Source: Jiella pacifica
GTDB taxonomy: Bacteria; Pseudomonadota; Alphaproteobacteria; Rhizobiales; Rhizobiaceae
DNA: 64,000 nt
Assembly (NCBI RefSeq): GCF_010500815.1
Contig: NZ_JAAAMG010000002.1
Coordinates: 135,730 to 199,729, forward strand
Reading direction: 5' to 3'
Shown here piece after piece: positions 1 through 27,807 of this stretch. The translations under genes and the position numbers were made by a program. The stretch's first letter is position 1. The number at the start of each line of letters is the position of its first letter. The notes below the pieces were generated by a model. It searched no databases, was not told where the DNA came from, and saw nothing but the letters and a program-made list of their open reading frames with translations.

Positions 1-31
1 GATGCAGCCCGCCGGTCCTCCCCCGGCGGGC
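1..31 (+). ncRNA. 3' end of a further anti-Shine-Dalgarno sRNA copy (5' part outside the window)
   Basis: A perfect 9-bp stem (7-15 with 23-31) closes the loop TCCTCCC. In the complete copies this is the third, 3'-most hairpin of the RNA, so the hairpin at 7-31 belongs to a copy that begins before base 1. The assignment to a separate upstream copy is inferred from the repeat phase. Confidence 0.7.
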
Positions 32-66
32 TCATTCGGAACCCAAGAGTTTCCAGGTTTGCCGAA

Positions 67-163
67 GCCCACCTCCTCCCGGGCCGAGGCGAAAGAGGTC
101 TGCCAACCTCCTCCCGAATAGGCAGACCATCCGATGCAGCCCGCCGGTCCTCCCCCGGCGGGC
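67..163 (+). ncRNA. alpha-r14/NfeR1-like ('cuckoo') anti-Shine-Dalgarno sRNA, copy 1
   Basis: Three consecutive hairpins are visible. Hairpin A is 67-84, a GCCC/GGGC stem with CCTCCTCCC in the loop. Hairpin B is 97-128, an 8-bp stem GGTCTGCC/GGCAGACC with CCTCCTCCC in a 16-nt loop. Hairpin C is 139-163, a 9-bp stem with loop TCCTCCC. The loop motif is complementary to a Shine-Dalgarno sequence. Rhizobial alpha-r14/NfeR1 RNAs and rhodobacterial CcsR RNAs have this architecture, and they act on ribosome-binding sites of target mRNAs. Exact 5' and 3' ends cannot be read from the sequence; the coordinates given are the hairpin boundaries. Confidence 0.8.
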
Positions 164-198
164 TCATTCGGAACCCAAGAGTTTCCAGGTTTGCCGAA

Positions 199-295
199 GC
201 CCACCTCCTCCCGGGCCGAGGCGAAAGAGGTCTGCCAACCTCCTCCCGAATAGGCAGACCGTCCGATGCAGCCCGCCGGTCCTCCCCCGGCGGGC
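199..295 (+). ncRNA. alpha-r14/NfeR1-like anti-Shine-Dalgarno sRNA, copy 2
   Basis: The same three hairpins recur 132 bp downstream: 199-216, 229-260 and 271-295, each with the CCTCC(TCCC) motif in its loop. All stems and loops are identical to copy 1. The only nearby change is A to G at 261, just outside hairpin B. No promoter or T-run separates it from copy 1, so co-transcription followed by processing is as likely as independent transcription. Confidence 0.8.
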
Positions 296-330
296 TCATT
301 CGGAACCCAAGAGTTTCAAGGTTTGCCAAA

Positions 331-427
331 GCCCACCTCCTCCCGGGCCGAGGCGAAAACGGTCTGCCAACCTCCTCCCGAATAGGCAGACCATCCGATG
401 CAGCCCGCCGGTCCTCCCCCGGCGGGC
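331..427 (+). ncRNA. alpha-r14/NfeR1-like anti-Shine-Dalgarno sRNA, copy 3
   Basis: Hairpins lie at 331-348, 361-392 and 403-427. The linker before hairpin A and the linker between A and B carry substitutions relative to copies 1 and 2, but all stems and the CCTCCTCCC loops are unchanged. Function follows from the shared architecture. Confidence 0.8.
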
Positions 428-462
428 TCATTCGGAACCCGAGAGTTTGAAGGTTTCGCGAT

Positions 463-560
463 GGCCCACCTCCTCCCGGGCCGGAGCGGATACGGCCTGC
501 AGATCCTCCTCCCAAATGCAGGTCAGAAAAGCGAAGCCCGTCGGTCCTCCCCCGACGGGC
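463..560 (+). ncRNA. alpha-r14/NfeR1-like anti-Shine-Dalgarno sRNA, terminal diverged copy
   Basis: Hairpins are at 463-482 (GGCCC/GGGCC), 494-524 (GGCCTGCA/TGCAGGTC, one G-T pair) and 536-560 (GCCCGTCGG/CCGACGGGC). The stems differ from copies 1-3 but both arms changed together, so pairing is kept. The loops still show CCTCCTCCC, CCTCCTCCC and TCCTCCC. The last hairpin is followed by TTTGTCGTT, so it probably terminates the whole array. This copy is the best evidence that the RNA structure is under selection. Confidence 0.82.
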
Positions 561-569
561 TTTGTCGTT
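536..569 (+). terminator. Probable intrinsic terminator of the sRNA array
   Basis: A 9-bp GC-rich stem (536-544 with 552-560) and loop TCCTCCC are followed by a moderately T-rich stretch at 561-569. It doubles as the third hairpin of the last sRNA copy. The upstream copies of this hairpin lack the T-run. Confidence 0.6.
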
Positions 570-580
570 CCTGGTGTTAA

Positions 581-620: not shown

Positions 621-654
621 TTCGCTTCGCCGGCGCATCGCTTAAATACCGGAC

Positions 655-2076
655 ATGAGCAATCAACCCATTCACGTCGTCGGCGGCGGTCTCGCCGGCT
701 CCGAGGCCGCCTGGCAGATCGCCGAGGCCAGCATTCCCGTCATCCTGCACGAGATGCGGCCGGTGCGCGGCACCGAGGCGCACAAGACCGACGGGCTCGC
801 CGAGCTCGTCTGCTCGAACTCGTTCCGGTCGGACGACGCGACGGCGAACGCCGTCGGCGTCATCCATGCCGAGATGCGGCTCGCCGGCTCGCTGATCATG
901 GCGACGGCCGACAGGCATCAGGTTCCGGCGGGCGGTGCGCTCGCCGTCGACCGCGAGGGCTTTTCCGCGGCCGTGACTCGGGCGCTCGCCGAGCATCCCC
1001 TGGTGACGATCGAGCGCGGCGAGGTCGACGGGCTGCCACCCGAAGACTGGGGCACGACCATCGTCGCCACCGGACCGCTCACAGCCCCCTCGCTCGCCGA
1101 ATCGATCCGCCAAGCCACGGGAGAGGACGCCCTCGCCTTCTTCGACGCCATCGCGCCGATCGTCCATTTCGACTCGATCGACCTCGACAAGGCCTGGTTC
1201 CAGTCGCGCTACGACAAGGTCGGCCCGGGCGGCACGGGCAAGGACTACATCAACTGCCCGCTCGACAAAGACATCTACGAGCGCTTCGTCGCCGCCCTCG
1301 TCGAGGGCGATCGCGCCGAGTTCAAGTCCTGGGAAGGGACGCCCTATTTCGACGGCTGCCTGCCGATCGAAGTGATGGCCGAGCGCGGACCCGAGACGCT
1401 CCGGCACGGCCCGATGAAGCCGATGGGCCTCACCAACGCCCACGATCCCGAGGTGAAGCCCTATGCCGTCGTCCAGCTTCGTCAGGACAATGCGCTCGGC
1501 ACCCTCTACAACATGGTCGGGTTCCAGACGAAGCTGAAATACGGCGCGCAGGCCGAGATCTTCCGGATGATCCCGGGACTCGAGAACGCCGAGTTCGCCC
1601 GTCTCGGCGGCCTCCACCGCAACACCTATCTGAACTCGCCGGTGCTGCTCGATGCGTCGCTCAGGCTGAAGGCGCGCCCGCATGTCCGCTTCGCCGGGCA
1701 GATCACCGGCTGCGAGGGGTATGTCGAATCGGCCGCCGTCGGGCTGATGGCGGGGCGCTTCACCGCCGCCGAGCGGCGCGGCGAGACGCTCCTTTCGCCG
1801 CCGCAGACGACCGCCATGGGTGCTCTGCTCGCCCACATCACCGGCGGCCATCTCGCCCACGAGGAAGAGGGTGGCAAGCGCTCCTTCCAGCCCATGAACG
1901 TCAATTTCGGCCTGTTCGCGCCGCTGGAGCCCGGCGCCATCCAGAAGCCGGAAGGGCAGAAGCGCTTCCGTGGCAAGGAAAAGGCCGTCGCCAAGAAGAA
2001 CGCCTTATCCCGCCGGGCGCTCGCCGACTTCGCGGCCTGGCTCGCAGGCGCCGAGACGCGGCAGGCGGCCGAGTAG
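655..2076 (+). CDS. trmFO: Methylenetetrahydrofolate--tRNA-(uracil-5-)-methyltransferase TrmFO
   Basis: A 473-residue flavoprotein that methylates U54 of tRNA (T-loop ribothymidine), using methylenetetrahydrofolate as carbon donor and FADH2 as reductant. The N-terminal FAD-binding motif [11 protein letters not shown] is at residues 10-20. Cys53, in ELVCSNSFR, aligns with the catalytic cysteine of the family, and the second conserved cysteine is Cys235 in [10 protein letters not shown]. Length is normal for the family. It is transcribed alone, about 90 bp downstream of the sRNA array, and no co-directional neighbour follows. The ATG start precedes the FAD motif at the expected distance. Confidence 0.97.
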
Positions 2077-5415: not shown

Positions 5416-8013
5416 TCAGGCTCGGCCCGGATTGGTGGTGCCACGCTCGGTCGGGTCCTCGGCCTCCGCCTTCTCCCTGTCCTCGGCGGCCTGCGCCGCC
5501 TCGGCGGCATCGGTCGGCCGCAGCTTGAAGAAGATCAGAACCGGCGCGGCGACGAAGATCGACGAGAAGGTGCCGATGGCGACGCCGAACAGCATCGAGG
5601 CGACGAACGAGCGAATCACCTCTCCGCCGAAGACGAACAGCGCGGCGAGGGCGAGGAGTGTCGTCGCCGAGGTCATCGTCGTTCGCGACAGCATCTCGTT
5701 GTCCGACAGATCGAGCAGCTGGCCGAGCGGCATCTTCTTGTAGCGCCGGAGATTTTCGCGCACGCGGTCGTAGATGACCACGGTATCGTTCAGCGAGTAG
5801 CCGACGATGGTCAGGATCGCCGCGACGGTGGACAGGCTGACGTCGAGCTGCGTCACGGTGATGAAGCCCAGCGTGAGGATGACGTCGTTGATCGTCGCGA
5901 TGATTGCGCCCACGGCGAACTGCCATTCGAAGCGCAGCCAGACATAGAACATGATGGCTACCAACGAGGCCAGAACGCCGAGGATCGCAGCCCATGCAAG
6001 CTCGCCCGAGACGGTCGGGCCGACGACCTCAGTCCGGCGGATGTCGTAGTCCGCGGCGATCGCCTGGCTGGCGTTGTCGACCAGCGACTGCTGCGAGGCG
6101 TCCGAGACCTCGCCGGCCGAGCCGATGCGGATCAGCGCCTCACGGTCGGTGCCGAATTCCTGCACCTGCGGATCGGCGATCCCGGCCTGTGCCAGACGCT
6201 CGCGGATGTTGCCGATGTCGGCTTCGCCCTGCTTGGCCTGAACCTCGATCAGCGTACCGCCGGTGAAATCGATGCCGAAATTCGGCCCTATGGCGAACAG
6301 CGAGACGATCGAGGCGACGCACAACGCCATCGACAGGCCGAAGATCTTCAACCGCACCTTCATGAACGGGATGCTGGTGACGTCCGGGACGAGACGGAGC
6401 CAGCCCCTCGGCAGTTCGCGCGGACGGCGGCTGCGGACCCAGGCCGCGACCAGCCAGCGAGTCAGCGTGAAGGCGGTGAAGATGGTCGTGATGATACCGA
6501 CTGCGAGCGTCACGGCGAAGCCGCGAACGGGACCGGAGCCGAGGAAGAACAGGACGACGGCGGCGATCAGCGTGGTGATGTTGGCGTCGAGGATCGTCGC
6601 CAGCGCCTTCTGAAACCCGATGTCGATCGCCTGGACCACAGAGCGGCCCTGTCGTCGTTCATCGCGGATGCGTTCGTAGATCAGGACGTTCGAATCGACC
6701 GCCATGCCGACGGTCAGGACGATGCCGGCGATGCCGGGCAGCGTCAGCGTCGCGCCGATCACCGTGAGGATCGCGAACAGAAGAATGACGTTGGCGGCGA
6801 GAGCGATGTTGGCGACGATGCCGAGGAAGCCGTAGGCCGCCAGCATGAAGAAGACGACCGCGATCGCGCCGATGATGCCGGCGATCTCGCCGGCGGCGAT
6901 CGAGTCGGCGCCGAGGCCCGGACCGACGGTGCGCTCCTCGATGATGTCGAGGGTCGCCGGCAGGGCGCCGGCCCTCAGCAGGACCGCAAGGTCGTTGGCG
7001 CTCTGGACGGTGAAGGAGCCGGAAATCTGTGCCTGTCCGCCCAGGATGGCAGTGCGGATCACCGGAGCGGACAGCACCTTGTCGTCGAGGACGATGGCAA
7101 ACGGCTTGCCGACATTGGCCTGCGTCACGCGGCCGAAGCGCTGCGCCCCTTGCGAATCGAAGCGAATGTTGACGACCGGCTCGTTGGTCTGCGGATCGAA
7201 GCCGGCCTGCGCATCGGTCAGGTTCTCGCCCGAAACCATGACCTGGTTGCGTACGAGGATCGGCTGCGCCGGGGTATCGGTCGTATAGAGAAGCCGAGAG
7301 CCCGGCGGCACACGCCCGCCCCGCGCGACCTGCTCGGCATTCTCGCTCTGGTCGACGAGCTGGAAGGTCAGCTTGGCCGTCTGGTTCAACAGCTCCTTGA
7401 GTCGCTGCGGATCGCCGAGGCCGGGAACCTGCACCATGATCCGGTCGTCGCCCTGGCGCTGGATGACCGGCTCGGTGGTGCCGAGTTCGTCGACGCGCCG
7501 CCTGACCACCTCGATCGACTGAGTGACCGCGGTCGACACCCGGTACTGGACGCCCTCGTCGGTCAGCGACGCGGTCAAAACCCCGGGCTGGGGCTCATCC
7601 AACGCGACTTCCGCCACCGAACCGCCCGCCATCAGACCGCTCGAGATCGACTGGGTCAGCGGACGGAGCGCCTCGCGCGCGGCATCCGCCTGGGACGGAT
7701 CGCGCAGCCGTATCGTCACGACCCGCTCGTTCGCAGAAATCGCCGAATAGCCGATCCGCTCGTTGCGCAGGAGCTGGCGAACCTCGTCCTGCACGGCCTG
7801 CTGCCGCTCCTGGATGAGCGATTCGCGATCGATCTGCAGGAGGATGTAGGATCCGCCCTGGAGGTCGAGACCGAGCGTCACCGAATCCTTCGGCCAGAAG
7901 CCGGGCATGGCGTCGGTGACGTTGCGCGGAAGCACGTTCGGCGCGGCGTAGACGATCCCGATGAGAACCGTCAGCCAGATGAGAATCGTCTTCCAGCGCG
8001 AAAAATACAGCAT
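5416..8013 (-). CDS. secDF: Fused protein translocase subunit SecDF
   Basis: An 865-residue inner-membrane protein that uses the proton gradient to help complete export through SecYEG. The SecD half (residues 1 to about 525) has the N-terminal helix, the motif LGLDLQGGS and the proton-path motif VDSNVLIYERIRDE. The SecF half follows, with GIDFTGGT and the membrane motif LNDTVVIYDRVREN. About 12 membrane helices are expected, six per half. The fused form is common in rhizobial relatives. It lies downstream of yajC (127 bp) and abuts the Mth938-fold gene. Confidence 0.97.
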   Translation of the reverse strand: MLYFSRWKTILIWLTVLIGIVYAAPNVLPRNVTDAMPGFWPKDSVTLGLDLQGGSYILLQIDRESLIQERQQAVQDEVRQLLRNERIGYSAISANERVVTIRLRDPSQADAAREALRPLTQSISSGLMAGGSVAEVALDEPQPGVLTASLTDEGVQYRVSTAVTQSIEVVRRRVDELGTTEPVIQRQGDDRIMVQVPGLGDPQRLKELLNQTAKLTFQLVDQSENAEQVARGGRVPPGSRLLYTTDTPAQPILVRNQVMVSGENLTDAQAGFDPQTNEPVVNIRFDSQGAQRFGRVTQANVGKPFAIVLDDKVLSAPVIRTAILGGQAQISGSFTVQSANDLAVLLRAGALPATLDIIEERTVGPGLGADSIAAGEIAGIIGAIAVVFFMLAAYGFLGIVANIALAANVILLFAILTVIGATLTLPGIAGIVLTVGMAVDSNVLIYERIRDERRQGRSVVQAIDIGFQKALATILDANITTLIAAVVLFFLGSGPVRGFAVTLAVGIITTIFTAFTLTRWLVAAWVRSRRPRELPRGWLRLVPDVTSIPFMKVRLKIFGLSMALCVASIVSLFAIGPNFGIDFTGGTLIEVQAKQGEADIGNIRERLAQAGIADPQVQEFGTDREALIRIGSAGEVSDASQQSLVDNASQAIAADYDIRRTEVVGPTVSGELAWAAILGVLASLVAIMFYVWLRFEWQFAVGAIIATINDVILTLGFITVTQLDVSLSTVAAILTIVGYSLNDTVVIYDRVRENLRRYKKMPLGQLLDLSDNEMLSRTTMTSATTLLALAALFVFGGEVIRSFVASMLFGVAIGTFSSIFVAAPVLIFFKLRPTDAAEAAQAAEDREKAEAEDPTERGTTNPGRA

Positions 8014-26904: not shown

Positions 26905-27807
26905 TCAGGCGAAGAGCCGCACCCCCTGCCCCGCATGTTCCCGAAAACTCTCGGCGATGTGTTCGGCGAGCGCTGCGGCAACCGGGCCGGCCTCCTCCCG
27001 CGTCATCATGTCGACCCGATAGGTGCCGAGCGGCGGTAGCCCGCCGGGCCCGTCGAGCCGCACCAGGCGAGGTGAGAGGACGCTCGCCGGCAGGGCGGCG
27101 ATGGCGAGATCAGCCTCCACGGCGGCGATCTGCGCCTGGCACTGCTCGCTCGAATAGGCAATGCGATAGTCGAGCCCAGCGCGGTCGAGAGCCTCCAGCG
27201 CCAGGGACCGCCAGAAGCAGCCATGCTCGGCCAGCGCCAGCGGCAGCGGATCGCGGGTCACCGCGCAGCCATTCTTCAACCCGACCCAGACGAGCATCTC
27301 GGTATGCACCTCGCGAACCGGAAGGCTCCCACCCTCCTCGCAGGTGAACAGCGCCACGTCGAGCTCTCGCGCGACGCATCGGCGCCTGAGTTCGGCGCTG
27401 GTATCGAGCCGCACTTCCACCTCGACATGGGGATGGGTCGAAGCGAAGCGTTTGAGGATTTCCGGGACGGCGAAGACACCGGAATCGTTCGGCGCGCCGA
27501 AGCGTACGCGCCCTTCCATCACCGGCCGGCGGAAGTGAGAGAGGACGTCGTCGTTGAGCTTCAACATCTTGCGGGCGAAGCCGAGCATATACTCACCGTC
27601 GCTCGTCAGTTCGACAGACCGCGTCTCGCGACGAAACAGCGGCCGGTCGAGCAGATCCTCCAGTTTCTTGACCTGCAGGCTGACCGCCGAGGGCGACCGG
27701 AACACCCGTTCGGCCGCCCGGGTGAAGTTGCCGGTCTCGCAGATCGCCACGAAAGTCCGGGCGAGATCGATATCGAGATTGGTGACGATCGGCGCCATCT
27801 GGTTCAT
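26905..27807 (-). CDS. LysR-family transcriptional regulator
   Basis: A 300-residue LTTR with an N-terminal winged helix-turn-helix (about residues 14-72, FVAICETGNFTRAAERVF) and a periplasmic-binding-protein-like effector domain. It is divergent from a DUF1127 gene, an arrangement repeatedly seen in Rhizobiales. A candidate operator lies just upstream at 27830-27844. The effector is unknown. The ATG at 27798 is an alternative start. Confidence 0.9.
   Translation of the reverse strand: MNQMAPIVTNLDIDLARTFVAICETGNFTRAAERVFRSPSAVSLQVKKLEDLLDRPLFRRETRSVELTSDGEYMLGFARKMLKLNDDVLSHFRRPVMEGRVRFGAPNDSGVFAVPEILKRFASTHPHVEVEVRLDTSAELRRRCVARELDVALFTCEEGGSLPVREVHTEMLVWVGLKNGCAVTRDPLPLALAEHGCFWRSLALEALDRAGLDYRIAYSSEQCQAQIAAVEADLAIAALPASVLSPRLVRLDGPGGLPPLGTYRVDMMTREEAGPVAAALAEHIAESFREHAGQGVRLFA

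Follow-up and report, generated by a model that had tools for sequence, protein, structure and literature searches.

A tandem array of ar14-type anti-Shine–Dalgarno RNA units behind a DUF1127 gene in Jiella pacifica and its relatives

Introduction

Several RNA systems of alphaproteobacteria carry anti-Shine–Dalgarno (anti-SD) motifs in hairpin loops. A 2011 description has SmelA075-type RNAs, which carry CCUCCUCCC loops, as widespread in Rhizobiales (PMC3927594). NfeR1, which belongs to the ar14 family, is reported to have redundant loops, to silence mRNAs at the ribosome-binding site and to depend on LsrB, and the founding ar14 member is given as a separate transcript of 123 nt (PMC10746234). 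Six NfeR1 copies are known in Sinorhizobium meliloti (PMC7143759).

A second system couples such RNAs to a protein gene. In alphaproteobacteria, short DUF1127 proteins are described as frequent companions of CcsR-like sRNAs, an arrangement labelled the CIN1 locus, and one of them, CcaF1, is reported to be an RNA-binding protein (PMC10253847, for the locus citing Reinkensmeier and Giegerich 2015). In Rhodobacter, RNase E is reported to cleave AU-rich regions and to be involved in the production of CcsR1-4 from the ccaF1 3' UTR (PMC8625941). Raised CcaF1 is said there to hinder CcsR maturation (PMC8307010). RNA binding by DUF1127 proteins is disputed, and one report presents the DUF1127 protein YjiS as having none (PMC12501420).

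Here we analyse 64,000 nucleotides of Jiella pacifica (G000:C12:135730-199729), referred to below as the window, whose first 570 bases hold a tandem repeat of anti-SD hairpins. The locus is of the kind already known from alphaproteobacteria, a DUF1127 gene with CcsR-like sRNAs (CIN1 locus), here with NfeR1-type units. We propose, with a probability of roughly 60%, that window positions 1-570 are the 3' part of a DUF1127–anti-SD operon, in which one regulated precursor would be cut to silencing sRNAs. Array anatomy, structure, conservation, promoter box and homogenisation were computed directly from the genomes.

Results

Array anatomy and structure

The first-pass annotation described a 132-bp tandem array of three-hairpin anti-SD units, with at least 12 loops in complete copies and one more at the edge. 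Tandem Repeats Finder (TRF) places the array at window positions 1-483 with a period of 132, 3.7 copies and 96% matches, and the register between units is 132, 132 and 133. Counted in the sequence, the window holds 13 anti-SD loops when the TCCTCCC loops of the third hairpins are included, in agreement with that description. The motif CCTCCTCCC occurs nine times on both strands of the window, eight of them within 72-513; 100 shuffles of the window contained 1.16 on average and never more than 4. Its sole occurrence outside the array is at 26991-26999. The 27-nt copies of the third hairpin starting at 6, 138, 270 and 402 are identical. The copies present in the window share 99% and 95% identity over 202 nt, and the terminal unit is about 65% identical to its neighbours. 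The features of the locus are collected in Table 1.

In every one of the four complete units, folding yields three hairpins whose loops expose the unpaired C-rich motif (z -4.0 to -4.9). For two units we also folded the reverse complement, with z -2.4 and -1.2. The whole array reached z -9.34 against shuffles. We then aligned 32 units from eight genomes (alignment A1). The consensus structure pairs 97.1% of cells, and control structures slid along the same alignment pair only 32.6-50.8%. Both sides have changed in 12 of the 26 stem pairs; the shuffled mean is 4.5 and none of 500 shuffles reaches 12, a control that leaves in place the kinship of the units, which share ancestry. Units of G003, G005 and G006 lie outside A1 and enter the unit tree, while unit 1 of J. 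pacifica (G000) was excluded from alignments and trees because of a gap of N. Repeat register, folds and covariation thus bear out the array as first described.

Table 1. Features of the array and its surroundings. Plain coordinates refer to the window; those marked L033 refer to the locus extending to its left, in which window base 1 is position 7731. The first six rows follow L033 from left to right.
Feature	Position	Strand	Support or remark
tig-like gene		-	
tRNA-Leu		-	
VtlR-type box	L033 7265-7279		1 mismatch to the published motif
DUF1127 gene, 47 codons	L033 7395-7538	same as array	PF06568, E 5.7e-15
Hairpins 1 and 2 of the first unit			
Gap of 95 N	L033 7636-7730		cuts first unit after hairpins 1 and 2
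Third hairpin, TCCTCCC loop	6..32	+	partial ar14 match 1-38, 20.5 bits
AGTTT in linker, candidate processing site	48..52	+	AGTTT in 27/31 linkers
Complete three-hairpin anti-SD unit, repeat type	53..170	+	ar14 55.7 bits (below 58.8); fold z -4.58
AGTTT in linker, candidate processing site	180..184	+	AGTTT in 27/31 linkers
Complete three-hairpin anti-SD unit, repeat type	185..302	+	ar14 54.7 bits (below 58.8); fold z -4.01
AGTTT in linker, candidate processing site	312..316	+	AGTTT in 27/31 linkers
Complete three-hairpin anti-SD unit, repeat type	317..434	+	ar14 57.8 bits (below 58.8); fold z -4.91
AGTTT in linker, candidate processing site	444..448	+	AGTTT in 27/31 linkers
Terminal unit, separate type common to six genomes of the genus	451..567	+	ar14 72.4 bits (above 58.8); clade support 1.000; fold z -4.54
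Last hairpin and T-rich tail, presumed transcript end	535..571	+	7 T in 14 bases after the stem, 3 after the other third hairpins here
trmFO (presumed), GIDA family, flanking gene outside array	655..2076	+	PF01134, E 1.8e-94

RNA family assignment

The units had been likened to ar14/NfeR1 and to CcsR RNAs, with a search by covariance models as the way to decide. The ar14 model (RF02344) does match. One of the four complete units, the terminal one, exceeds the gathering cut-off of 58.8 bits, and the other three fall just below it at 54.7-57.8 bits (E 3.8e-9 or better). Membership in the CcsR1 family (RF02791) was rejected, with 23.2-29.3 bits against a cut-off of 65.3.

A model built from the 32 units, run on the whole genome at E 0.001, finds five places, all in the array, one of them the unit cut by the gap. 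The ar14 search of 61 genomes, J. pacifica included, gave a match in 45 and a score above the cut-off in 34; none of 14 control genomes matched. This search found no second ar14-like match elsewhere in J. pacifica. Second, weaker matches of about 85-117 nt occur in seven other genomes of the genus (G001:C1:906438, G002:C3:43069, G004:C13:180745, G005:C38:89424, G007:C12:160673, G008:C29:79716 and G009:C6:10477). No copy of the array was found on plasmids, window positions 1-575 having no match among 72,556 plasmid records. A search of the J. pacifica genome for ar15/AbcR gave no match, as did its controls.

The DUF1127 gene and gene order

A DUF1127 gene and further copies had been predicted to the left of base 1, and both are there: the gene lies on the strand of the array, followed by at least one more unit that the 95-N gap cuts (Table 1). 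From GATGC to GATGC, the start-to-start distance across the gap is 100. Since this is no multiple of 132, the size of the gap is nominal or estimated. The hairpin at 6..32 comes either from the unit with hairpins 1 and 2 left of the gap or from a unit lost in it, and J. pacifica has at least five units and may have more.

The order DUF1127–array–trmFO, with tig on the other side, holds in all ten genomes examined of the genus. Both names are our assumption: we take the minus-strand gene far left in L033 to be tig and the gene downstream of the array to be trmFO. The order in G008 was inferred from two contig ends that share the DUF1127 gene and units, one carrying tig and the other trmFO. Among the matches listed, the closest TrmFO is that of Aurantimonas sp. 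22II-16-19i (94%).

Two side observations concern these genes. No SD-like sequence precedes trmFO (window 630-657) in any of the ten genomes, and a TAAATA/TAGATA-like element stands directly 5' of the ATG, although a strict TANNNT scan matched in only one of the ten. The trmFO mRNA may therefore be leaderless and beyond the reach of anti-SD loops. The DUF1127 gene of G001 (L034 5116-5257) is read in two frames, possibly through a sequencing error, the genome being given as 84% complete.

A VtlR/LsrB-type box upstream of DUF1127

The published VtlR motif is CAATGCAGCCATGCA (PMC12595884). It lies 127-139 bp upstream of the DUF1127 start, with one mismatch in five genomes of the genus and two mismatches in five; in shuffled leaders, at most 1 in 300 per leader equals it. 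The box given for NfeR1 is TGCA-N6-GCAT (PMC10746234). Relaxed to TGCA-N6-GCA(T/A), it overlaps the VtlR motif in 11 of the 12 leaders compared; in its strict form (GCAT) it is found in 7 of 12, J. pacifica not among them. A box proposed for Agrobacterium (PMC7486931) fits the same place in 7 of 12. These scans covered the plus strand of the leaders. Five DUF1127 genes were found in J. pacifica, and only that of the array has a VtlR motif at up to four mismatches and a series of loops within its 3-kb locus. No VtlR motif with two or fewer mismatches was found within the window.

A candidate regulator is encoded in the same genome, where a LysR gene adjoins trxB. At E 1e-40 its only solved relative is 9HH1 (E 2e-134), the LsrB structure from Agrobacterium (PMC11975290). 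This trxB-adjacent LsrB has one match, at 62-100% identity, in each of the eight genomes searched. In Brucella, trxB is reported as a neighbour of vtlR (PMC12595884).

We also scanned for an RpoHI/HII-type pattern. At two mismatches it occurs 29 times in 10.5 kb against 20.4 expected, a number reached by 6 of 200 shuffles, and three of the 29 fall in the DUF1127 leader region (L033 7217-7315). The other spacing gave 17 against 20.0.

Related loci outside the genus

DUF1127–ar14 loci beside trmFO also occur, among the loci listed, in Mesorhizobium, Aminobacter, Pseudaminobacter, Brucella, Phyllobacterium, Aureimonas and others. They share an order: one or more DUF1127 genes, at least one three-loop unit, and trmFO downstream. 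Nine of the 27 operons listed have two DUF1127 genes. The Mesorhizobium group has fewer units, one to three, and the distance between loops of neighbouring units is 77-101 nt in these loci compared with mostly 56-64 nt in the genus. In Pleomorphomonas (L115 3573-3891), nine anti-SD loops stand behind DUF1127 without regular triplets, and two stretches match the unit model.

The VtlR motif goes with the array. Among the 80 trmFO loci listed, it is present at up to three mismatches (box within 2-3) in 16 of 27 DUF1127–array operons and in 3 of 69 DUF1127 genes or pairs not counted as array operons. Here, too, the scan covered the plus strand of the leaders. Six more array operons have it at four mismatches, which gives 22/27 against 7/69; 11 of the 27 lack a box at up to three. 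For the loci listed, Fisher's test gives p 1.3e-8, a value that ignores relatedness, and 9 of the 16 belong to Mesorhizobium and its near kin. An array operon was defined by at least three chained loops and counted per operon, with DUF1127 matches on the minus strand and leaders shorter than 100 nt left out. This count supersedes an earlier per-gene tally at three mismatches (array 8/36, first genes of pairs 9/9, others 2/61), whose array class held second genes of pairs and single chance loops.

Linkers and transcript end

The units end differently depending on their place in the array. Across 11 genomes, the T count of the 14 nt that follow the third hairpin is 6-8 for each last unit and 0-5 for all the rest. 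A terminator scan of the plus strand left the last hairpin uncalled and predicted 2 sites in the region, where 1.5 are expected. A sigma-70 promoter scan of L033 7000-8500 found none.

The linkers between units are about 20-30 nt long and 56% A+T, compared with 29% in the units. AGTTT is present in 27 of 31 linkers overall and in 27 of 28 within the genus. RNWTT, a form of RNase E site, is found in 30 of 31 linkers but only six times in 4460 bases of units. With a T-rich tail solely after the last unit, the likely product is one precursor, cut to unit-length sRNAs at the A/U-rich linkers. On these sequence patterns, it is more probable that the units are cut from a single DUF1127 transcript than that each is a gene by itself.

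Copy number and homogenisation

The number of units varies within the genus: at least five in J. pacifica, five in G001, six in G004, four in G003 and G007, three in G002, G005, G008 and G009, and two in G006. G035, from another genus of the same family, has four.

The annotation had read the near-identity of copies as recent amplification or homogenisation, and the comparison across genomes upholds homogenisation. Compared within a genome, inner units (those with a unit on either side) show 94.4% identity (14 pairs), as against 82.3% between genomes (139 pairs). Where a genome has two or more non-terminal units, 26 such units in all, the best match is in the same genome for 19, tied for one and elsewhere for six, and none of 5000 label permutations reached the difference between within- and between-genome values. 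The data support homogenisation of non-terminal units within genomes.

Terminal units follow a different course. Those of G000, G001, G003, G006, G007 and G009 group together in a single clade (support 1.000). The last unit is nearest its own neighbour in G002 and G005; those of G004 and G008 are nearest each other and are placed among repeat-type units. In these four genomes the terminal type has probably been overwritten and the T-rich tail retained.

Discussion

Regulator, processing and silencing are modelled here on relatives of the locus. An LsrB/VtlR-type regulator would most likely act at one promoter upstream of the 47-codon DUF1127 gene. Transcription would pass through at least five three-hairpin units and stop at or after the last hairpin. 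By analogy with Rhodobacter, RNase E may cut this precursor in the A/U-rich AGUUU linkers, yielding ar14/NfeR1-type sRNAs of about 120 nt, and the DUF1127 protein might modulate the cutting, for better or worse. In each sRNA, three interchangeable C-rich loops would cover the SD sequences of other mRNAs and block translation.

Could each unit instead be an sRNA gene in its own right, with a promoter and a terminator to itself, like NfeR1 in Sinorhizobium, the tandem being a product of duplication? The units do match ar14, whose founding member is a transcript of its own (PMC10746234), and unit spacing is wider in the Mesorhizobium relatives. Against separate genes stand the non-terminal third hairpins, which lack a T-rich tail, the short linkers, and a region with no sigma-70-like promoter and a window with no VtlR motif at up to two mismatches; we consider this reading unlikely. 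It is quite unlikely, too, that the array works mostly as an uncut RNA whose many loops engage several mRNAs or ribosome-binding sites at once, or that it acts in cis on the SD of DUF1127. That SD, AAAGGAGGTT, is complementary to the loops in eight of ten genomes of the genus, its duplexes with loops 1 and 2 reach -10.0 to -14.0 kcal/mol in those eight, and the array as a whole folds far better than its shuffles. However, any strong SD would pair in this way. G002 and G006 have another SD sequence (-4.1 to -8.7 kcal/mol) but unchanged loops, so SD and loops have not changed together. The CcsR relatives, moreover, are processed.

Near-identical copies in variable number might also be expected of a recently amplified, mostly silent repeat without a function of its own, and in S. 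meliloti just one of the six NfeR1 loci is reported as well detected (PMC7143759). Yet loops and pairing are preserved across the genus, every genome examined has at least two units, and the terminator tail is retained where the terminal unit was overwritten, which makes a silent repeat distinctly improbable. That the repeats encode a repetitive protein is extremely improbable. Most spacings in J. pacifica are 132, divisible by three, and ORFs cross its units, but across 11 genomes the spacing is divisible by three in only 12 of 30 cases, so ORFs through the array are not conserved. Stems are also preserved through changes on both sides, and the coding reading was rejected on the out-of-frame spacing.

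A wider proposal, put forward tentatively, is that DUF1127 genes controlled by the redox regulator LsrB/VtlR in Rhizobiales are largely precursors of anti-SD RNAs. One switch might then yield a small DUF1127 protein together with a tunable number of RNAs that block ribosome-binding sites. The length of the array, which in this genus ranges from 2 to 6 units and from 6 to 18 loops, would set the dosage and evolve fast, and recombination between units would keep the copies uniform. This would unite two lines that the literature, as far as seen in the sources cited, treats separately: on one side the control of DUF1127 genes and of NfeR1 by LsrB/VtlR, on the other the anti-SD RNAs linked to DUF1127. 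The genus itself supplies arrays of 2, 3, 4, 5 and 6 units behind the same type of box, so the question of why redundant sibling sRNAs are retained is open to dosage tests. In the open-licence literature, searched by title and the start of the abstract, we found no paper that describes this array or links LsrB/VtlR to DUF1127–anti-SD arrays. As far as that literature shows, the species-level pattern of copy number and homogenisation is new, and so is the tie, relatedness ignored, between the LsrB/VtlR box and array-bearing DUF1127 genes.

Besides the loci of related genera, three known systems frame the locus. With ar14/NfeR1 (RF02344; S. meliloti) it shares three hairpins with an anti-SD motif in each loop, a length of about 120 nt and an LsrB-type box upstream. 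It differs in having at least five consecutive units downstream of a DUF1127 gene, non-terminal units without a T-rich tail and TCCTCCC as the loop of third hairpins. Judged from sequence scans for T-rich tails, promoters and VtlR motifs, the units also seem to lack a promoter-like site between them, and those before the last a terminator, where NfeR1 has a promoter and a terminator of its own. AbcR/ar15 RNAs likewise carry CU-rich anti-SD motifs, occur in tandem and are reported to be LsrB/VtlR-controlled in S. meliloti, Agrobacterium and Brucella (PMC7143759, PMC12595884, PMC7486931), but they are a separate RNA family from the array units. In gene order, the locus matches the CcaF1–CcsR1-4 operon (CIN1 locus) of Rhodobacter sphaeroides, which is described with a DUF1127 gene, then homologous anti-SD units and a terminator at the end (PMC10253847). 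Unlike that operon, the array has three-hairpin units that score below the CcsR1 cut-off, two to six of them per species, and an LsrB/VtlR-type box upstream, where an RpoHI/HII promoter is possible but not clear-cut.
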